A stretch of 36,463 nucleotides of DNA from an uncultured Lachnospiraceae bacterium (GTDB taxonomy: Bacteria > Bacillota > Clostridia > Lachnospirales > Lachnospiraceae): positions 1-36,463 of the forward strand of contig CANQGA010000009.1 in the NCBI GenBank assembly GCA_947600145.1, read 5' to 3'. The translations under genes and the position numbers were made by a program. Shown piece by piece: positions 12,541 to 29,458 of the stretch (position 1 is the stretch's first letter; each line of letters begins with the position of its first letter). The notes beneath the pieces are model-generated. The model worked only from the letters and a program-made list of their open reading frames with translations. It made no database searches and was not told where the DNA came from.

Positions 12541-14733
12541 TTATGTTATCTTCCGCGTGCCGGAGCGGCCGTACATGACCTGGGCCATATTGACCGCTTC
12601 TTCCGGAGACATGTCGCCGGCGATCATATTTTTGACCGCGGTGCCGATGGAAAATTCGTAATCCCAGATGGAGCAGCCATCCGGCGTCGGCTGGGAGCTG
12701 ACGCCGCGGCTTCCCAGGGCGAAGCTTTCCTGAGTGGCCGGCAGCCACGGGAAGATCACAAAGTTTTTGAAATTATTGTAGGTATCTGCCAGAGGAGAGG
12801 TGCCGCCCAGCCGCACGATCATCGTGGAGATGTCCGGCGTAAAGTACCAGCGGAGGAATTCCCGGCAGGCTTCCACGTTCTTTGAATAGCGGCAGATGCC
12901 GACTACGCCGCCTCCCAGAAGAGGCCGGCGGCCGGGTACTACGGCAGCGCCGATCTTGCCGATCATATGGGACCGGCCGGAGCTGATGATATTGGCGGCG
13001 TAATTGGAGTAGACGACGGTCATAGCCACGGATCCCTCCGTCAGCAGCCGGACGCAGCCGCGCCATGACTGAGGCCGGCCGGCAAAATCCAGCATTCGGA
13101 GATACTGGCGCATGGCCTCGGCCATTTCCCCGGTCCGGATGGCGGGGCCGGAAGCTTTCTGCGGGGCGTCCGGGACGTTCGCCAGGTAATAAGGCATGAA
13201 ATCGCTGGCAGTGGCAAAAGCGGTCTGATCCATGATGGTGGTTCCGTACCGGGTAGGCGAATTGGGACTGCAGGCGGCGGTGAAAAACTCCGCGGTCTGC
13301 AGGTACTGCCCGATGGTAACAGGCACGGACAGAGTCTCATGATACCGCTCAAAATAAGCGCGGCGCAGCAGCGTGTCGTCGAACAGGTCGCTCCGATACA
13401 GCAGAAGCTGGACGCTGGGATCGAAGGGCAGGGTGTACATGGCGCCGCCGGAAAGGGAATAATTGTCATAATTCCCCCGGATCAGCGTCTGCGGAAGAGT
13501 CTCGGGCGTGATGCCGGCCTCGCTTAAAGGCATATAGGTCTTTCTGCCCATAACGTCCATGCGGGCCACATCCATCCGGATCAGGTCATAGCAGAAGTCG
13601 TCGCTCAGCATGTCGGCGGTAGCGGCCAGATCCTCCGCGGAGGTGCGTATCAGCTTTAAATGGATCCCGCTTTCCGCCTCAAACATAGGCAGAAGCTTAT
13701 CCAGCGCGTTGGTCGTGGGAGTGTCAAGCGTGAGCATGGTCAGCGTGCGGACAGCTTTTTTCGGGATCTGAGGCAGAGCCTGCGGGAAACCGCCGTCTTC
13801 CATGGTGATGACCGGCGGCATGGATTCTTTTTGACGCGACCAGCGGATGATCTGATCCGCGATCCGCACGCCCATCTGGCTGAAATCCAGCCGGCAGGCA
13901 AGAAAATCCGCCGGCGCCAGACCGCCGGAATTGGAAAGCGTGATGATCTCCGGGCGTTCTTTCGCGTAGGAGATCCGCAGAGCGCTCTGAACGGCTTCTG
14001 CCCGGGAAAGGCTGCTGGTCACGATGGCGTCGAAACGGACGCCGGCCTGGACGATGTCGAAGGCGGTGTTGATGGCCAGGTTAAAGGTCGAGGTGAAATG
14101 CCGGATGGAGACAGCGCTGCCGTTTACGGCGTCTTCCAGACCTTTTATCAGCAGCTGATCGCGGGAAAAGGAGGGCGGCGTGGAGAACACGGCTACCTCC
14201 CTGCGGCCGCTGTCCAGGATATGGCGTCCGATGGCCGCGCCGATCTTCTCATAGTCAAAGCGGATGAACATATCGTTGGGCCGGACGGGTTCGCCGTCCC
14301 GGTCGATGTATATGACAGGGCACGGAAGATCCCTGTAGAGTTCTTCGCCGGAATTTCCCAGGCAGGAAACAGTCACTACGGCTGTCAGTCCCGACTGGGG
14401 AATGCGTTTCAGGATCGCTTCCTCGATACTGGCGATATCGTTGGTCGGATAGACGTTCACATCATAATCCGCCTTGAAAAGCGTGGTCTGAACCGCGTTG
14501 TAAAGATCCAGATAGATATCCTCGCAGAGAGAGGGAAGGATCAGGGCGACCGTCCGCGTGATCCCCTGCTTCAGCAGCTGGGCCTGAACGTTGGGCACAT
14601 AACCCAGCTTTTTGGCGGCGTTCTCCACCAGACGGATCTTCTCGATACTGACTTTGCCGGTTTTGTTCAGAACGTTGGATACGGTGCCGTGGGAAACGCC
14701 CGCTTCCCTGGCGATGTCTTTGATCGTAGGCAT
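12541..14733 (-). CDS. LacI-family regulator fused to a second ABC-type solute-binding domain
   Basis: This 730-residue protein has three parts. Residues 1-47 are a LacI helix-turn-helix (PTIKDIAREAGVSHGTVSNVLN). Residues about 60-320 are a LacI-type periplasmic-binding-like sensor. Residues about 327-725 are a complete solute-binding domain of the ABC-transporter type (SBP_bac_1-like), recognisable by LLTEGSVAMTVVYSN and by GGGVVGICRYSKNVEACREF followed by GGTSPLADTY. An ordinary LacI protein ends near residue 340. There is no signal peptide, so both binding domains should be cytoplasmic. The hinge block AQLLKQG has Gln where Arg is usual. The ATG at 14733 is set by AGGAGG 6 nt upstream; longer in-frame starts have no such site. 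It is divergent from the transport operon, its likely target. Confidence 0.9.
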   Translation of the reverse strand: MPTIKDIAREAGVSHGTVSNVLNKTGKVSIEKIRLVENAAKKLGYVPNVQAQLLKQGITRTVALILPSLCEDIYLDLYNAVQTTLFKADYDVNVYPTNDIASIEEAILKRIPQSGLTAVVTVSCLGNSGEELYRDLPCPVIYIDRDGEPVRPNDMFIRFDYEKIGAAIGRHILDSGRREVAVFSTPPSFSRDQLLIKGLEDAVNGSAVSIRHFTSTFNLAINTAFDIVQAGVRFDAIVTSSLSRAEAVQSALRISYAKERPEIITLSNSGGLAPADFLACRLDFSQMGVRIADQIIRWSRQKESMPPVITMEDGGFPQALPQIPKKAVRTLTMLTLDTPTTNALDKLLPMFEAESGIHLKLIRTSAEDLAATADMLSDDFCYDLIRMDVARMDVMGRKTYMPLSEAGITPETLPQTLIRGNYDNYSLSGGAMYTLPFDPSVQLLLYRSDLFDDTLLRRAYFERYHETLSVPVTIGQYLQTAEFFTAACSPNSPTRYGTTIMDQTAFATASDFMPYYLANVPDAPQKASGPAIRTGEMAEAMRQYLRMLDFAGRPQSWRGCVRLLTEGSVAMTVVYSNYAANIISSGRSHMIGKIGAAVVPGRRPLLGGGVVGICRYSKNVEACREFLRWYFTPDISTMIVRLGGTSPLADTYNNFKNFVIFPWLPATQESFALGSRGVSSQPTPDGCSIWDYEFSIGTAVKNMIAGDMSPEEAVNMAQVMYGRSGTRKIT

Positions 14734-14784
14734 AAAATACCTCCTGACTGATGCCCTGCCTTGTGGAAATCTATCTATATTAAT

Positions 14785-14839: not shown

Positions 14840-14905
14840 AAAATCAAACAAAGATTTATAGATGAAATTCAGCAATAAAATTAGAACGAACCAATTGCAA
14901 AAATA

Positions 14906-14955: not shown

Positions 14956-15011
14956 AATCGGACATATATAAAATAATTCGAAAATTAAGTCATAAAATTT
15001 GAAAATTAATA

Positions 15012-15040
15012 TTGACACGTACCAATCAATGGTATATAAT
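15012..15040 (+). promoter_or_regulatory. Perfect-consensus sigma-A promoter of the transport operon
   Basis: TTGACA (15012-15017) and TATAAT (15035-15040) are separated by exactly 17 bp. The spacer holds an imperfect palindrome, ACCAATCAATGGT (15021-15033). A promoter this strong implies tight repression, presumably by the divergent LacI-type protein. Confidence 0.85.
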
Positions 15041-15066
15041 CATGATCATAGGATATCCTGATCATG
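15041..15066. promoter_or_regulatory. Nested palindrome at the transcription start (candidate operator)
   Basis: A perfect 10-bp palindrome, AGGATATCCT (15050-15059), is enclosed by CATGATC (15041-15047) and GATCATG (15060-15066). The block begins right after the -10 box and covers the expected +1, the classic position for a LacI-type repressor. It could also fold as a hairpin at the very 5' end of the mRNA. Confidence 0.65.
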
Positions 15067-15127
15067 TAACTGAAGACAATGGGGTGGACGGCCGGCGCAC
15101 ATGCGGAACGGCCGGAGGGGAAGGAGA

Positions 15128-16078
15128 GTGAAAGGCTTTGTGAATCAACAGGCAGCTCAAAAAATCCGGAAGCGCGCGAAAACCTGGAAGCTGATGAAGA
15201 AAAACTGGCTCCTGTATATGTTTCTGCTTCCGGCGGCACTTTATATCGCCATATTTCATTACGGGCCCATGTACGGGCTGCAGATCGCGTTTCGAGACTA
15301 TAAGGCGGTCAACGGAATATGGGGAAGCAAATGGGTAGGACTGAAGTGGATCACCACCTTCATGAATACGCCGCGGTTCTGGATGATCTTTAAGAATACG
15401 CTGAAGATCAGCCTGTATTCTCTGATCAGCTTTCCGTTCCCGATCATTCTGGCAGTGTTTTTGAACAATGTGCGGAATGTGCGCAGGAAGAAATTCGTCC
15501 AGACCGTTACTTACATGCCCCATTTTATCTCCACAGTGGTGCTGGTGGGCATGCTCTCGCTGTTTTTGTCGCCGCGCAACGGCATTGTGAATATGCTGGT
15601 TGGATTGTTCGGCGGCCCGACCGACACGTATTTCATGGGACAGGCGGATTACTTTTCCCACATCTATGTCTGGTCCGGGATCTGGCAGAGCATGGGATGG
15701 GGTTCCATCATCTACGTGGCGGCGCTGACCGGCGTGGACCAGGAGCTGCATGACGCGGCCCAGGTGGACGGGGCCAATAAGCTCCAGCGGATCTGGCACA
15801 TCGACATTCCGTCGATCCTGCCGACGATCATCATTATGCTGATCTTAAGGCTCGGAAGTATCATGGGCGTGGGCTATGAGAAGGTGTACCTGATGCAGAA
15901 CTCATTGAATCTCACTTCTTCGGAGGTGATCTCTACCTACGTGTATAAAATGGGTCTGCAGGATCAGCGGTTCAGCTACTCAGCGGCGATAGGTCTGTTC
16001 AACAACGTGATCAATTTTATCGTGCTCATCATCGCCAATAAGACGGCGGATAAGGTGAGCGGATCCAGTCTGTGGTAA
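15128..16078 (+). CDS. ABC sugar-type permease, LplB-like
   Basis: This 316-residue inner-membrane permease has six membrane helices. It is of the binding-protein-dependent type (LplB/YteP group) that serves oligosaccharide importers with large lipoproteins. The EAA loop reads HDAAQVDGANKLQRIWHIDI, followed by PSILPTI, where it docks to the ATPase. The start is uncertain. GTG 15128 is preferred, with GGAGGGGAAGGAG just upstream; ATG 15101 has no ribosome-binding site and GTG 15140 is rather far from one. It is the first gene of the operon, about 80 nt after the predicted transcription start. No ATPase gene is present, so a shared MsmK-type ATPase is expected. Confidence 0.9.
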   Translation: MKGFVNQQAAQKIRKRAKTWKLMKKNWLLYMFLLPAALYIAIFHYGPMYGLQIAFRDYKAVNGIWGSKWVGLKWITTFMNTPRFWMIFKNTLKISLYSLISFPFPIILAVFLNNVRNVRRKKFVQTVTYMPHFISTVVLVGMLSLFLSPRNGIVNMLVGLFGGPTDTYFMGQADYFSHIYVWSGIWQSMGWGSIIYVAALTGVDQELHDAAQVDGANKLQRIWHIDIPSILPTIIIMLILRLGSIMGVGYEKVYLMQNSLNLTSSEVISTYVYKMGLQDQRFSYSAAIGLFNNVINFIVLIIANKTADKVSGSSLW

Positions 16079-16090
16079 GGAGGGCGGCCT

Positions 16091-17014
16091 ATGCAGAGTA
16101 TGATCCGAATCCGGAAACGTTCGGCGAACGGGATCCGGCAGTCCTGGGACAACAGACTGTTCGACGCGCTGGCAAACACATTTCTGATCCTGCTTACCAT
16201 CGTTACGATCTATCCGCTGTGGTTTATCCTTGTGGCGTCGTTTACCGATTATAAGCTGATCAACGCCGGATCCCTGCTTCTGTATCCGAAGGGATTCCAT
16301 TTGATGGGATATCAGCGGGTGTTTGCGGACTGGAGGGTCTGGTCCGGATACATGAACACATTAATCTATACGGTAGGTGGTACGATCTTCGGATCGATGG
16401 TGACGATCCTGGCGGGGTACGCTTTTTCCAGAAAAGACCTGCCGGGCAGCGGGATTTTGATGAAGCTGTTTATTTTTACGATGTATTTCGGCGGCGGTCT
16501 GATCCCGACATACATCATGATCAAGAATCTGGGGCTTCTGGACACGCGGCTTCTGATGATCCTGCAGAGCAGCATTTCGGTACATAACATCATTGTAGTG
16601 AGGTCTTTTATGAAGACCAATATCCCGGACGAACTTCTGGACGCGGCGACTATCGACGGCTGCGGGAACGGAACGTTTTTCGTGTCGATCGTGATGCCGC
16701 TGTCGAAGGCGATCTTCGCGGTGATGGTACTGTATATCGCGGTGAGCCACTGGAATTCATATTTCAACGCGCTGATCTATCTGACGGACAGGTACAAATA
16801 TCCGCTTCAGGTGTTTTTAAGGGAGATCCTGCTGCAGACGACGCAGAATCATGAGATCATGGAGGATGCGGAGATGGCCCTTCAGGTGCAGCAGATGACG
16901 GCGACGATTCGGTACAGTGTGATCGTGGTATCGACGGCCCCGATCCTCTGTGTGTATCCGTTTATTCAGAAGTATTTTGTGAAGGGAGTTATGATCGGCT
17001 CGGTCAAAGGCTGA
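16091..17014 (+). CDS. ABC sugar-type permease, LplC/YtcP-like
   Basis: This 307-residue permease has about six membrane helices and forms a heterodimer with the preceding gene product. Its EAA loop reads LLDAATIDGCGNGTFF, followed by IVMPLSKA. The long extracytoplasmic segment and the C-terminal FVKGVMIGSVKG end are typical of the YtcP branch. The ATG at 16091 is preceded by AAGGAGG and follows the first permease stop by 12 nt. Confidence 0.92.
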   Translation: MQSMIRIRKRSANGIRQSWDNRLFDALANTFLILLTIVTIYPLWFILVASFTDYKLINAGSLLLYPKGFHLMGYQRVFADWRVWSGYMNTLIYTVGGTIFGSMVTILAGYAFSRKDLPGSGILMKLFIFTMYFGGGLIPTYIMIKNLGLLDTRLLMILQSSISVHNIIVVRSFMKTNIPDELLDAATIDGCGNGTFFVSIVMPLSKAIFAVMVLYIAVSHWNSYFNALIYLTDRYKYPLQVFLREILLQTTQNHEIMEDAEMALQVQQMTATIRYSVIVVSTAPILCVYPFIQKYFVKGVMIGSVKG

Positions 17015-17063: not shown

Positions 17064-18818
17064 ATGAAAAAGCAGGTATTGGCGGCTATACTGACGGCGG
17101 CATTGGCGGTATCGGCACTGGCGGGATGCGGAAATGGAAATTCCGCGCAGCAGACGACGGCGGCGACGACCGCGGCAAAACAGGAAACGCAGGCGGCGAC
17201 GGCGGCTTCTTCCGGGGAGACGTCACAGGAGGCTGCGGAAACGGGAAAAGAGATCACATCAAATGGACTTCCCGTAGACTACTTTGCGGGAACGACTCTG
17301 AATATCTATACAAAGCCGTCCGCGGAGCTTGATACTTCCGCGAATCCAAATGATAAAGCGATTTATCAGATGGTCGAGGAAGCGACGGGAATCCATGTGA
17401 ACTGGACGCTTCTGACCAGCCAGGCCTGGTCGGAGCAGGTAAATCTGAAGCTGTCCAGCGGCGATATGCCGGACGCGTTCCTTTCTAACGTGGGAGAGAG
17501 CACGGTCAGCAACAATATGGATATGTTTTACGATCTCAGCAAGGATGATATCTTAAAGACTTATGCGCCGGATGTGCTGGCGACGATCGAGGCAGTTTAT
17601 CCCAATGGGATTGGAGCGATCACGTGGCCTGACGGTTCCATCCGCTCTCTTCCTACATCGAGACTGGAGACCGTCTATAAGGAAGCGAACTGGGTTCCGA
17701 TGATCAATACAACATGGCTTAAACGCGTAGGTATGGATATGCCGACGACTACCGATGAGTTATATGAAGTATTATGCGCATTCCGTGATCAGGATGCCAA
17801 TGGGAACGGTGATCCGAACGATGAAATCCCCTTTGGATTTGCTGATAAGTACAGCGACTGCCATATTCATCATTCCGCTAATTTCTTCGGCATTGCCAAC
17901 GCGAGAGACGGAGATTCCGGACATTATAAAATGGTGAAAAATGGAGTCGTAACGCCTACTGCCGATACGGACGCATGGCGCGCGTGGCTGGAGTGGCTGC
18001 ACAAGCTTCTGGAGGAAGGGCTTCTGGATGTGGAAGGATTCTCGCAGACGGGCGATGAATGGACCGCGAAGCTGAGTCAGGATCTTTACGGCATGACCTT
18101 TATGTTCAGTCCGGCCCACAACGGTTTGAATTATGATGACTGGGATGTGGTCATGGTTCAGGGTCTTGAGGGCGTGGAGCCTGTGATCGATGGCAACCGT
18201 TATCATGATACGACGGTCAAACTGGGTCTTACTATCGCTGCGGACAGCGAAAATGTTCCGGCACTGCTGCACTGGTGGAATTACATTTCCAGTTCCCGTG
18301 AATTGAAGATGATCGATTTTGCCGGAGAGCAGGGGATTCTGTGGGATGTCTATGACGGAGAGATCTACTTAAGCGATGACTGGAAGAAGAAACCTGAGTT
18401 TGCCAATGAATCGGCCAGCAGCCTGACTAATACGCGGGGCGAAGGCGGTAAGAGCGTACTGATCTCGGTTGAAGAGTATGCAGTGGATCCGCAGAATATC
18501 CATCTGGTTGACGGAGTGCCGACGGAATTGGAGTTCGATCACACGGATACGACACAGGGCCGGATCAAGATTCAGGAGAAGGTCATGGATTACCTGCAGT
18601 ATGAGTATATTCCAGCTAAGTTCGAGGATCCTGAGGCGGTCAGCGAGAGGACGTTTCTGGAGACGGATCTGATGCCGATGATGTCCAATTTCCTGTCTAC
18701 CAGCATCATGGACGGCATCACCGACGAGTCCTGGAACGCGTATCTGAAGGATCTGGAGACCTACGGCTACTATGACTGGATCGAGTGGTATCAGAAGAGT
18801 CTTGACGGAGAACTTTAA
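17064..18818 (+). CDS. Extracellular solute-binding lipoprotein, LplA-like
   Basis: This 584-residue lipoprotein captures the ligand for the two upstream permeases. It has a short signal peptide ending in the lipobox LAGC with C22 as the lipidation site. A Thr/Ala/Gln-rich tether (about 26-60) follows, then a large two-lobed binding domain of the kind paired with LplB/YtcP permeases. DQDANGNGDPNDEIPFGF looks like the calcium-binding loop often seen in this group. GGAGG is placed well ahead of ATG 17064. By eye the gene is less GC-rich than its neighbours, so its history may differ. The ligand is unknown; relatives bind oligosaccharides. Confidence 0.92.
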   Translation: MKKQVLAAILTAALAVSALAGCGNGNSAQQTTAATTAAKQETQAATAASSGETSQEAAETGKEITSNGLPVDYFAGTTLNIYTKPSAELDTSANPNDKAIYQMVEEATGIHVNWTLLTSQAWSEQVNLKLSSGDMPDAFLSNVGESTVSNNMDMFYDLSKDDILKTYAPDVLATIEAVYPNGIGAITWPDGSIRSLPTSRLETVYKEANWVPMINTTWLKRVGMDMPTTTDELYEVLCAFRDQDANGNGDPNDEIPFGFADKYSDCHIHHSANFFGIANARDGDSGHYKMVKNGVVTPTADTDAWRAWLEWLHKLLEEGLLDVEGFSQTGDEWTAKLSQDLYGMTFMFSPAHNGLNYDDWDVVMVQGLEGVEPVIDGNRYHDTTVKLGLTIAADSENVPALLHWWNYISSSRELKMIDFAGEQGILWDVYDGEIYLSDDWKKKPEFANESASSLTNTRGEGGKSVLISVEEYAVDPQNIHLVDGVPTELEFDHTDTTQGRIKIQEKVMDYLQYEYIPAKFEDPEAVSERTFLETDLMPMMSNFLSTSIMDGITDESWNAYLKDLETYGYYDWIEWYQKSLDGEL

Positions 18819-18830
18819 GCAGGTGTGAGT

Positions 18831-19661
18831 ATGAACGAGCTGAACGAATTATGCAGAAGTAAAGGCGTCCTGGTGGCGGCGCACCAGGGACTTGGCGGGG
18901 CGAATATTCCGGCCAATACGATCCCTGCGTTTGAGCTGGCCGTCAGAAACGGCGCGGCGGTTCTGGAGATGGATCTGTTTAAGACGGCGGACGGGGAGCT
19001 GTTCATTTTCCATACGGGCAAGGAACGGCTCCGGCTCCGGCTGGAGGCCGATGTCAGGACTATGACCGCGCAGCAGGTGCGGGAGCTCCGGTTTATCAAC
19101 GCGGACGGGGCGGCGACCCACTACGGCCTGGACTCCTTCGACGACGTGCTGGAGCATTTCCGGGGGCGATGCCTGATGAATCTGGACCGCTGCGGCGGCT
19201 TTCTGGAGGATGTAGCGCGCTGCGTAGATCGCCACGGGATGCGGGAGCAGATCCTTCTCAAGACGGATCCGTCGGAGGAACGGCTGGCGGAGGTGGAGGC
19301 GTTCGCGCCGGAATACATGTATCTGCCGGTCTATAAGGAGACGGATACGGCTACTGAGCGGATCCGCGGGAGGAATATCCATATGGTCGGGGCGGAGCTG
19401 GTATTCGCGCGGGAGGATTCGCCGATCGCCTGCCAGGAATATATCGACTCGATGCGCCGGATGGGAATGGTACTGTGGGTCAATACGCTGATCTACAATG
19501 AGAATGTGCCTCTGAGCGCCGGCCACAATGATGATGTCTCGCTCCTTAAGGATCCGGATGACGGCTGGGGCTGGGCGGCCCGGAAGGGCTTCGGCATCAT
19601 TCAGACCGACTGGACGGCCCAGTGCGCGGAGTGGCTTAAGCATCACGGGTTCAGCTATTAA
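18831..19661 (+). CDS. Glycerophosphodiester phosphodiesterase family protein
   Basis: This 276-residue TIM-barrel protein is of the GDPD family, which splits glycerophosphodiesters into glycerol-3-phosphate and an alcohol. The two catalytic histidines (H18 in AHQG, H61 in FHTG) and metal ligands E46 and D48 (LEMD) are kept. The usual HRG is HQG, PENT is PANT and HD is HT, so the active site departs from the standard. No signal peptide is seen, implying action on imported substrate. ATG 18831 is preferred, with AGGTG upstream; a GTG at 18825 is possible. It starts 12 nt after the lipoprotein gene, so a phosphodiester may be part of the imported ligand. Another phosphodiester or sugar-phosphate substrate is possible. 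Confidence 0.82.
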   Translation: MNELNELCRSKGVLVAAHQGLGGANIPANTIPAFELAVRNGAAVLEMDLFKTADGELFIFHTGKERLRLRLEADVRTMTAQQVRELRFINADGAATHYGLDSFDDVLEHFRGRCLMNLDRCGGFLEDVARCVDRHGMREQILLKTDPSEERLAEVEAFAPEYMYLPVYKETDTATERIRGRNIHMVGAELVFAREDSPIACQEYIDSMRRMGMVLWVNTLIYNENVPLSAGHNDDVSLLKDPDDGWGWAARKGFGIIQTDWTAQCAEWLKHHGFSY

Positions 19662-19677
19662 GATGGGAGAGGCTTAT

Positions 19678-20373
19678 ATGAGGATGAGTTTTTCGGGTGT
19701 CGGCGCGGCGTACAGGCCTTCCTGGGGCAGCAACAGTGCGTTTTTCATGGCGGAGGACCAGCTTTACCTGATGGACTGCGGAGAAACGGTGTTCGGCCGT
19801 ATGGCGGACCGGCCGGAGCTTGCGCGGTGCGCGGCGGTGAATATATTGGTTACCCACCGCCACCCGGATCATATCGGCAGTCTGGGCTCGCTGGCTTCTT
19901 ACTGCAGGTACGTGTTGGGCAAGCCGGTACTGGTGGCTTCGCCCGACGCGGGACTGCCGGTGATACTGGAGCTTATGGGGATCTGCAGGGAGGCGTATCA
20001 GTTCCGGACGGATTTTTCGGAGCCGTTTCCCGGCGGGATCAGGGTGACGCCGCTTAAGGTATGCCACGCTCCCGGGATGGACTGTTACGGCTATTATCTT
20101 TCCGACGGAAAGGAAACCGTTTTTTACAGCGGCGATTCCAATAAGATGCCGGAACAGGTGATCGAGGGGCTGAAGGCGGGTACATTGGCCCATGTCTATC
20201 AGGAGACCACCTATGAGAAGAAGGAGAATCCCGAGCACTGTTCTTTGAAACAGCTGTGCGAGTGTATTCCCGGCGGACTGCGCGGCCGCGTCACCTGCAT
20301 GCATTTTGGAGAGGAATTCCGGGAGGCGGTGGAGAAGAACGGTTTCCTCGCGGCTCGGGTATGCGAACTGTGA
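19678..20373 (+). CDS. MBL-fold metallo-hydrolase
   Basis: This 231-residue protein has the metallo-beta-lactamase fold with a full dinuclear metal site: THRHPDH (H60, H62, D64, H65), H120, D143 in YSGDSN, and H199 in CMHF. The layout resembles small phosphodiesterase members such as RNase Z-like or PhnP-like proteins rather than beta-lactamases. ATG 19678 is chosen because GGAGAGG lies 5 nt upstream; an ATG at 19663 has none. It is the last gene of the operon, 16 nt after the GDPD gene, and is followed by a strong terminator. Working after or alongside the GDPD on the same imported compound is a reasonable inference; the substrate is not known. Confidence 0.85.
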   Translation: MRMSFSGVGAAYRPSWGSNSAFFMAEDQLYLMDCGETVFGRMADRPELARCAAVNILVTHRHPDHIGSLGSLASYCRYVLGKPVLVASPDAGLPVILELMGICREAYQFRTDFSEPFPGGIRVTPLKVCHAPGMDCYGYYLSDGKETVFYSGDSNKMPEQVIEGLKAGTLAHVYQETTYEKKENPEHCSLKQLCECIPGGLRGRVTCMHFGEEFREAVEKNGFLAARVCEL

Positions 20374-26980: not shown

Positions 26981-29458
26981 ATGGGAAAATGGCAGAGACA
27001 TTTATACCAGCCGGTACTCCCTCTGGGAGAGGACGGCAGGCGGGTGACCGGAAGCGAGGCGCATATCGCGCTTTCCCGGCGGGCGGCCGGGGAAGGAATG
27101 GTACTTCTGAAAAATGAGAAGGAGTGCCTTCCGCTTGCCGCGGGCGCGAAGGTGGCGCTGTTCGGCAAGGGGACGATCGACTATGTAAAAGGCGGAGGCG
27201 GAAGCGGCGACGTGACGGTCGCCTATGTGCGCAGCCTGTACGAAGGCATGAAGCAGATGGAGAGCCGGGGAAAGGTGGAGCTGTTCCACGAGCTTCCGCT
27301 GTTTTATGAAAAGGAGATCGCCGCCCAGTACGCGGCTGGGGCGGTTCCCGGCATGACGAAGGAGCCGGCTCTGCCGGAGGAGCTGCTTGAGCGGGCCGTG
27401 AAGGCGGCGGACGTCGCCGTCGTGACCTTCTGCCGGTTTTCGGGAGAGGGATGGGACCGGGTCAGCGCTGATGGCGCCGCGCAGAGGCAGAAGGCTGAGG
27501 AGAGTCCGGTCCTGCGCATGGGAAAGGATATCTTTGAGCGGGGCGATTTCTATCTGACGAAGGCGGAAGAGGCGCTGCTTGAGGCAGTCTGCGGCCGGTT
27601 TGCCCGGGTGATCGCGGTGATGAATGTGGGCGGCATGGTGGACAGCAGCTGGTTTAAGGACAATGACCGGATCGGCGCGGTGCTGATGGCCTGGCAGGGC
27701 GGCATGGAAGGCGGAACGGCAGCAGCGGAGGTGCTGTGCGGCGACGTGAATCCGTCCGGGCGGCTGGCGGATACATTTGCGGCGTCGCTGGAGGATTATC
27801 CGTCGACGGCGGGTTTCCATGAATCGGACGACTATGTGGATTATACCGAGGATATTTACGTTGGTTATCGGTACTTTGAGACGATTCCGGGGGCCGCGGG
27901 GAAGGTCAATTATCCGTTCGGGTTCGGACTTTCGTATACCGGTTTCGATATCAGCGTTAAGAGCGGGTCAGCGCAGGGAGACGAGATCGTCTTTGACGTG
28001 CGTGTGAAGAATACGGGCAGCCGCGCGGGAAAGGAAGTCGTTCAGGTCTATTTCGGAGCGCCTCAGGGGAAGCTGGGGAAGCCGGCCAGAACGCTTGCCG
28101 CGTTTCAGAAGACGAAGCTGCTGGAACCGGGGGAAGAAGCAGATCTTCGGCTGTCATTTCCGGTCGCGTCCATGGCCTCCTACGACGATACGGGGAAGGT
28201 GCGCGCCAGCGCGTACGTCCTGGAGCCGGGAGAATATGTCTTTTATGTCGGAAACAATGTGCGCGACGCGGTGAAGGCGGATTTCGTATACCGGCAGGAA
28301 AATGTTCAGGTGACGGAGCAGCTGGCATCCCAGGCGGCGCCTCACAGGCTTTCTAAACGGCTTCTGGCCAGCGGGGAATACGAGAACCTGCCGGCGGGCG
28401 AGGCGGAGACAGGCGCGGCAGCCGCATGCCGGGCGGAGCCGGAAACGGCCGGACCTGCCTGCCCGGAAACAGGCGCGGAAGCGGCTCTTCTGCCCCAGGA
28501 TCCGGCGGAACTGGAAGGCGTGCAGCCTGCCGCAAGAGGGATCGGCCGGATCCGCCGTGACCGGCTCGGGGACAGGCCCCAGCTTCTGGATGTGGCGGAA
28601 GGCCGGATGACGCTGGATGATTTTGCGGAGCAGTTAAGCGACGACGACCGGATCCATCTGCTGGGCGGCCAGCCCAATACCGGCGTGGCCAATACCTTCG
28701 GCATGGGCAATATTCCGGAGTACGGCGTGCCGAACGTGATGACGGCGGACGGACCTGCGGGTCTGCGCATCCGGAAGCCCTGCGGGATCTTTACGACCGC
28801 GTTTCCATGCGCGACTTTGCTGGCGTGCACCTGGGATCCGGAACTGGCGGAGCAGATCGGGGCCGCGGCGGCGGACGAACTGAAGGAGAATAATCTGGCC
28901 GTCTGGCTGGCGCCGGCGGTGAATATCCACCGCAGCCCTCTGTGCGGACGGAATTTCGAGTACTATTCCGAAGATCCGCTGCTGGCCGGAAAGGCAGCCG
29001 CCGCGATGGTGCGCGGCATCCAGTCGAAGAAGATCGGCGCCTGCGCGAAGCATTTTGCCTGCAACAACAAAGAGACGAACCGCAAGGACAGCGATTCCCG
29101 CGTATCCGAGCGGGCACTGCGGGAGATCTACCTGAAAGCGTTCGAGATCATTGTGAAGGAATCACAGCCGTATATGATCATGACCTCCTATAACCTGGTC
29201 AACGGCGTGCGGGCTTCCGAGAATAAGGACCTGCTGACCGGAATCCTGCGTGGCGAGTGGGGCTATACCGGTCTTGTGACCACGGACTGGTGGACCCGCG
29301 GCGAACATTACCGGGAGATCAAGGCCGGCAACGACGTGAAAATGGGAACCGGCTATCCGGAGCGGGTGAAGGAGGCCCTGGAGAAAGGACTGATCAGCCG
29401 GGAGGAGATCACGGCCTGCGCGCGGCGCGTGCTGGAGATGATACTCAAGCTGGAATAA
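26981..29458 (+). CDS. GH3 beta-glucosidase with reversed domain order
   Basis: This 825-residue cytoplasmic glycoside hydrolase has its usual parts swapped. The GH3 C-terminal sandwich domain comes first (about 25-300, with LLKNEKECLPL and CRFSGEGWDR), then a fibronectin-III-like domain (about 320-410), a Glu/Ala/Pro-rich linker (about 465-520) and finally the catalytic (beta/alpha)8 domain (about 540-825). The catalytic domain contains TADGPAGLRI, GRNFEYYSEDP, AKHFACNNKETNR and the nucleophile region VTTDWW (D769). The same order is known in some rumen clostridial beta-glucosidases. No signal peptide is present. ATG 26981 has AGGAG 6 nt upstream, inside the end of the kinase gene, so the two are translationally coupled. 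Confidence 0.92.
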   Translation: MGKWQRHLYQPVLPLGEDGRRVTGSEAHIALSRRAAGEGMVLLKNEKECLPLAAGAKVALFGKGTIDYVKGGGGSGDVTVAYVRSLYEGMKQMESRGKVELFHELPLFYEKEIAAQYAAGAVPGMTKEPALPEELLERAVKAADVAVVTFCRFSGEGWDRVSADGAAQRQKAEESPVLRMGKDIFERGDFYLTKAEEALLEAVCGRFARVIAVMNVGGMVDSSWFKDNDRIGAVLMAWQGGMEGGTAAAEVLCGDVNPSGRLADTFAASLEDYPSTAGFHESDDYVDYTEDIYVGYRYFETIPGAAGKVNYPFGFGLSYTGFDISVKSGSAQGDEIVFDVRVKNTGSRAGKEVVQVYFGAPQGKLGKPARTLAAFQKTKLLEPGEEADLRLSFPVASMASYDDTGKVRASAYVLEPGEYVFYVGNNVRDAVKADFVYRQENVQVTEQLASQAAPHRLSKRLLASGEYENLPAGEAETGAAAACRAEPETAGPACPETGAEAALLPQDPAELEGVQPAARGIGRIRRDRLGDRPQLLDVAEGRMTLDDFAEQLSDDDRIHLLGGQPNTGVANTFGMGNIPEYGVPNVMTADGPAGLRIRKPCGIFTTAFPCATLLACTWDPELAEQIGAAAADELKENNLAVWLAPAVNIHRSPLCGRNFEYYSEDPLLAGKAAAAMVRGIQSKKIGACAKHFACNNKETNRKDSDSRVSERALREIYLKAFEIIVKESQPYMIMTSYNLVNGVRASENKDLLTGILRGEWGYTGLVTTDWWTRGEHYREIKAGNDVKMGTGYPERVKEALEKGLISREEITACARRVLEMILKLE

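Follow-up and report, generated by a model that had tools for sequence, protein, structure and literature searches.

Within a stretch of 36,463 nucleotides from an uncultured Lachnospiraceae bacterium (GCA_947600145.1, contig CANQGA010000009.1; hereafter the window), a single ORF of 730 aa (12541–14733, minus strand) joins a LacI-type repressor to a solute-binding protein (SBP) domain beside an import operon. A first-pass annotation considered it a regulator with two sensors, which could read both the compound taken up and one of its breakdown products. The locus raises the question of which of the two binding folds senses a ligand, and what the protein does with the signal.

Architecture and distribution of the fusion

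The initial description, in which a single cytoplasmic protein combines a LacI helix-turn-helix (HTH) and a LacI-type core with an SBP-type domain that is complete, was borne out by domain searches, which recovered both LacI HTH and SBP_bac_1, and by fold comparison. The N-terminal HTH (residues 3–48; 14590–14727, minus strand), with recognition helix VSHGTVSNVLN, matched the Pfam LacI profile PF00356 above its cut-off (1.7e-15). Alignment and fold comparison placed the LacI core at residues 59–320 (13774–14559, minus strand), a complete periplasmic-binding-protein type 1 fold whose anchoring R and D are replaced (L195 and S267). The two-domain make-up of LacI/GalR proteins is exceeded by a third domain of 404 residues, C-terminal to the core, that domain and fold comparison identified as a full-length SBP_bac_1-type fold (residues 327–730; 12544–13755, minus strand). 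SBP_bac_5, HTH_18 and Peripla_BP_2 had no match at E≤1 in a domain search of the window fusion. A Shine–Dalgarno sequence of the gene, AGGAGG, was read at 14740–14745 on the minus strand.

Hydropathy of the first 60 residues revealed no export signal in any of 64 fusions. With the signal peptide absent, an exported protein is ruled out, and the proposed recruitment into the cell of a normally exported fold stands; as in cytoplasmic regulators of the SgrR/Btr type, DNA-binding and SBP domains share one chain without a signal peptide. A sequencing merge of two genes was ruled out by a paralogue in the same genome and by relatives that share the architecture at full length, in Lachnospiraceae, other Clostridia, Paenibacillus, Spirochaetes and enterobacteria and on E. 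coli plasmids. A role as a defence system was also rejected: the sole PADLOC match, to mad1 (17.9 bits, residues 2–26, E 6.6e-4), was taken as an HTH match.

The paralogue, on contig C75 (L037), is 31% identical to the window fusion and is flanked by the same gene set, its module comprising a GH3-like gene, two permeases, an SBP, a GDPD-family phosphodiesterase and the fusion regulator. The window itself encodes, at 26981–29458, a GH3-type glycoside hydrolase whose two domains have changed places (Pfam C-terminal domain at 40–319, N-terminal domain at 582–819). GH3 enzymes of reversed order are already known.

A count of the architecture in Lachnospiraceae, proposed in the first-pass annotation, gave 29 of 299 genomes matching the fusion at E≤1e-20; in 27 of these the open frame exceeded 700 aa. 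At genus level, 10 of 21 genomes matched at E≤1e-50. In a phylum-wide sample, full-length fusion matches at E≤1e-60 occurred in at least 2 of 398 genomes, a lower bound given that two candidates were scored per genome, and the remaining matches were stand-alone LacI or SBP proteins. The scan of named genomes retrieved at least 79 fusion loci, hosted by Lachnospiraceae, other Clostridia, Paenibacillus, Bacillus, Erysipelothrix, Spirochaetes, Gilliamella, Budvicia, Erwinia and Klebsiella. Three of the 79 (L132, L141 and L179) had no ORF above 300 bits, leaving the 76 loci used below. LacI HTH and SBP_bac_1 were present together in 41/41 relatives scanned.

Relatives of the Klebsiella gene were found in 46 of 5,426 complete E. 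coli genomes and were plasmid-borne at 44 of 46 places. All 20 E. coli fusions among the matches listed bear the RefSeq name 'extracellular solute-binding protein', and the suspicion that fused forms may exist in databases proved correct: the architecture is common there under another name. On E. coli plasmid p1-H9 (L182, 4849–10175) and related plasmids, the fusion is accompanied by a metallo-hydrolase, an MFS transporter and an MgtC/SapB gene.

A tree built from 79 fusion SBP domains, with 20 stand-alone SBPs as a narrow outgroup, puts all the fusions on one side of a single branch (support 94/98; recovered in 92% of the bootstrap trees). The tree does not reject a single origin of the fusion. 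The idea that the SBP domain was copied from the SBP of the neighbouring transporter is unsupported, as fusion SBP domains group apart.

Neighbouring genes and the likely ligand

The fusion is indeed divergent from the import operon, which lies on the plus strand. Its genes encode an ABC permease (BPD_transp_1, UgpA-like, by domain and model search; 15101–16078), a second permease (UgpE/GlcU-like, by model search; 16091–17014), an SBP of 584 aa with a signal peptide (domain search and hydropathy; 17064–18818), a GDPD-family phosphodiesterase with DUF4996 (domain search; 18825–19661) and a PhnP/Apyc1-like metallo-beta-lactamase-fold phosphodiesterase (19663–20373; the ORF is listed from 19528, and the start at 19663 is our reading), in this order and all on the plus strand. 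An importer and a GDPD also share a single operon in UgpBAEC-UgpQ of E. coli, and the window permeases score with the UgpA and UgpE models. However, that operon is under PhoB and CRP, whereas a LacI-SBP fusion is found here.

Transporter genes adjoin the fusion in 70 of the 76 loci. Within 8 kb, with each cluster labelled after one or two of its members, the neighbours were ABC permeases (56 loci), GDPD (45), ABC ATPases (37), 2-aminoethylphosphonate-type SBPs (32), the MgtC family (28), PhnP-like metallo-beta-lactamase folds (26), SBP_bac_1 proteins of about 448 aa (16) and nucleoside-symporter-like MFS transporters (11). A GDPD or PhnP-like gene lies near the fusion in 60/76 loci and both do in 11, while neither was found in 16, some of which lie on short contigs. 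The GDPD profile had no match in any of the 31 loci whose fusions are more distant. Beside the distant fusions L042–L072, ORF lengths resemble those of ribose-type ABC operons. The MgtC/SapB-family gene, whose 28 occurrences beside fusion and operon fall within L103–L181, is perhaps tied to phosphate homeostasis.

The catalytic H, E, D and H are kept in all 46 GDPDs compared. The window enzyme (18825–19661) has AHQG where its relatives have AHRG (R in 41/46, Q in 3/46), and its substrate may possibly be shifted.

Because a phosphodiesterase is the constant partner while the transporter type varies, a phosphodiester, or a piece of one, is the likeliest candidate for the ligand. A sugar or glycoside is also possible, since the kin of the SBP domain, including its best matches, bind sugars. 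The SBP_bac_1-type proteins compared, namely Arad_9887 (5iai), a trehalose/maltose-binding protein (1eu8), SmoF (7yzs) and UgpB with glycerophosphocholine (6r1b), are exported and feed transporters, unlike the fusion, which has no signal peptide. That transporters vary (ABC types, MFS symporter) under an unchanged regulator argues against the SBP domain being a spare transporter part.

Predicted operator and promoter

The predicted operator, newly described here, is a palindrome close to ATTGGAACGTTCCAAT. The motif set was drawn from the 48 of 76 loci whose recognition helix contains VSHGT; 40 upstream regions were used, the other eight being near duplicates or having unsure starts. At widths 18 and 20, an EM palindrome search returned ATTGgaACGTtcCAAT with scores of 179.1 and 188.4, compared with 34.4 and 32.6 in a shuffled control (one run, 30 vs 60 starting seeds). 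At up to three mismatches, 64 sites occurred in 145,482 non-coding bases versus 19 in 1,280,533 coding bases; when the non-coding sequence was shuffled ten times, each shuffle gave 0–3 sites. Such sites were present in 47/76 loci, before the transport/phosphodiesterase operon in 43 and before the fusion in 28; non-coding DNA of the other 29 loci had none at this threshold. Fifteen loci contain paired sites less than 400 bp apart, with a spacing of 98–189 bp in 14. TTGAC occupies the −35 position in 41 site orientations, and at least five of the six TATAAT letters follow 16–18 bases downstream in 25 of these (raw count).

Two copies, 131 bp apart, lie in the single intergenic region between the fusion and the import operon of the window. 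The pattern search placed the distal copy, ATTAGAACGAACCAAT, with three mismatches to the consensus, at 14880–14895, and the proximal copy, ATTGACACGTACCAAT, at 15011–15026 (both plus strand). The latter holds the import operon's −35 box, and the promoter of this operon is a full consensus match: TTGACA (15012–15017), a 17-base spacer and TATAAT (15035–15040). Across the organism's own genome (3.49 Mb), the pattern with one mismatch occurs at three places, two in the window and one beside the paralogue (C75:13306), versus two for a reversed control pattern, a count that is weak on its own. Seven loci outside the motif set, three of which lie on contigs equal in length to those of L133, L140 and L149 (within the 76 and outside the 40), all had a site at up to four mismatches and six had one at up to three. 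A 52%-identical relative has two sites 139 bp apart, its promoter-proximal one identical to that of the window, and on the E. coli plasmid two sites lie between the metallo-hydrolase and fusion genes.

Other candidate operators were discarded. TACCA-N5-TGGTA, a first guess located in the promoter spacer, was present only in L103 and L105 of the 76 loci, and exact inverted-repeat counting returned mostly AT-rich repeats, the best in 7 loci vs 2–3 in shuffles. A separate inverted repeat, ATGATCA-N10-TGATCAT, is located at 15043–15066 of the window, just 3′ of the −10 box; its core, TGATCA-N10-TGATCA, was counted in no loci other than L103, L104 and L105.

Sensing, mechanism and relation to known regulators

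Ligand-anchoring residues in this family occupy the columns of LacI R197/PurR R196 and LacI D274/PurR D275, which we take to be equivalent. In our alignment, the arginine is present in 26/26 stand-alone LacI controls and 0/99 distinct fusions, and the aspartate in 22/26 and 2/99, respectively, the controls having been found with the same profile as the fusions and chosen for likeness to them. By our reading of the alignment, the arginine is also missing in 3d8u (Q) and S. aureus CcpA 7e5w (V). Averaged over pairs among 64 fusions, identity reaches 67.3% in the HTH, and the SBP domain, at 35.6%, is better conserved than the LacI core, at 24.8%. Pairwise tests, on small counts, place all three domains under purifying selection, with dN/dS of about 0.07–0.18 for the LacI core (five pairs, few changes).

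Because the LacI core is kept while its usual pocket is lost, we read it as a dimer scaffold and relay, and the SBP domain as the likelier sensor. Since the core remains under purifying selection, a role beyond that of scaffold is possible. The core may also accommodate a non-canonical ligand. A true two-sensor regulator, whose LacI core and SBP domain would bind different ligands and combine their outputs, agrees with the completeness of both folds and with selection on both domains. Nevertheless, this reading is unlikely considering that both canonical anchors are replaced family-wide (R lost in 99/99 fusions, D in 97/99) and that the core is the least conserved domain. The earlier two-sensor claim finds partial support: both folds are complete, but sensing by both domains is unsupported as first put, and the joint reading of an imported compound and its breakdown product has nothing behind it except these folds.

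Taking together the architecture, the anchor loss, the conserved sites overlapping the −35 box and the recurrent phosphodiesterase neighbours, all sequence-based, we consider it rather probable that the protein is a one-component repressor, with a LacI-HTH dimer on the operator, the LacI core as relay and the cytoplasmic SBP domain as ligand switch. It would probably sense the imported compound inside the cell through the SBP domain, releasing the import and cleavage genes. The HTH of the dimer would bind the palindrome ATTGRNACGTNYCAAT, and an occupied site over the −35 box of the divergent operon would block RNA polymerase, while a second site some 100–190 bp away could permit looping that strengthens repression, as well as self-regulation. 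The core would still dimerise and stay allosterically coupled to the DNA-binding domain, its canonical pocket being out of use. The appended SBP domain, having lost its export signal, would close on the imported compound in the cytoplasm, and this closure, relayed via the core, would take the dimer off the DNA so that transporter and phosphodiesterase genes are expressed. Four points here are our inferences: repression over activation, which way the ligand acts, looping, and the class to which the ligand belongs.

Were the fusion instead an activator that recruits RNA polymerase when ligand-bound, the second, upstream site at several loci would be accounted for, but a promoter-proximal site over the −35 box and the full-consensus window promoter suit a repressor, and activation seems improbable. 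We give just as little credence to the SBP domain being an anchor that docks the repressor to the cytoplasmic side of permeases or to some other protein and keeps it sequestered while transport proceeds. SBPs are built for permease contact and the fusion nearly always has transporter genes beside it, but SBPs dock at the outer face of permeases, and the transporter type changes freely, even to an MFS symporter without an SBP.

The closest known regulators are SgrR and Btr. Btr (YbbB) of Bacillus subtilis is an activator with an AraC-type HTH, a Peripla_BP_2 domain and a siderophore ligand. Its cytoplasmic SBP domain senses an imported compound and controls the importer, as proposed for the fusion, which has a LacI HTH and SBP_bac_1 instead. 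With LacI/GalR repressors (LacI, PurR and CcpA), the fusion shares the HTH, the core fold, a central-CG palindromic operator (predicted here) and the divergent gene order. It differs in carrying a further domain of SBP type, about 400 residues long, at its C-terminus and in its replaced canonical pocket residues; LacI factors are described as two-domain proteins in a passage of Ravcheev 2014 (PMC4052901). In siderophore clusters, Table 1 of PMC13293324 has Peripla_BP_2 with HTH_18 as a common combination and 148 SBP_bac_1 genes without a second domain. Passages of two further papers (PMC13060122, PMC7786190) describe SgrR and DsvR as an HTH with a C-terminal SBP_bac_5 domain whose presumed ligand is a small molecule, and sgrS is activated by SgrR according to a passage of a third (PMC4021124). 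These are likewise one-component regulators with an intracellular SBP domain; the fusion has a different HTH, a different SBP family and, in addition, a LacI core. The first-pass statement that no example has been characterised holds for this exact architecture: no characterised LacI-SBP_bac_1 regulator was found in the open-access literature searched. It does not hold for HTHs fused to other SBP families, as in SgrR and Btr. HTH-SBP regulators are known as a kind; the LacI variant, whose other binding fold has probably fallen out of use, appears to be new to that literature.

Tentatively, the fusions may constitute a widespread class of repressors in which sensing shifted from the LacI core, now a dead-pocket relay, to the SBP domain, with one operator from Lachnospiraceae to enterobacterial plasmids and an exchangeable module for phosphodiester import and cleavage. 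The predicted operator makes this directly testable. If true, a sensor has been relocated between binding folds within one repressor, the old sensor being retained as a relay, and the protein would serve as a ready-made switch: its ligand domain is an ordinary SBP, and many specificities of that fold, engineered ones included, are known. The analysis also corrects a misleading database name that labels a DNA-binding protein as extracellular, and it points to a putative module of phosphodiester-use genes under shared control in gut bacteria and on E. coli plasmids.
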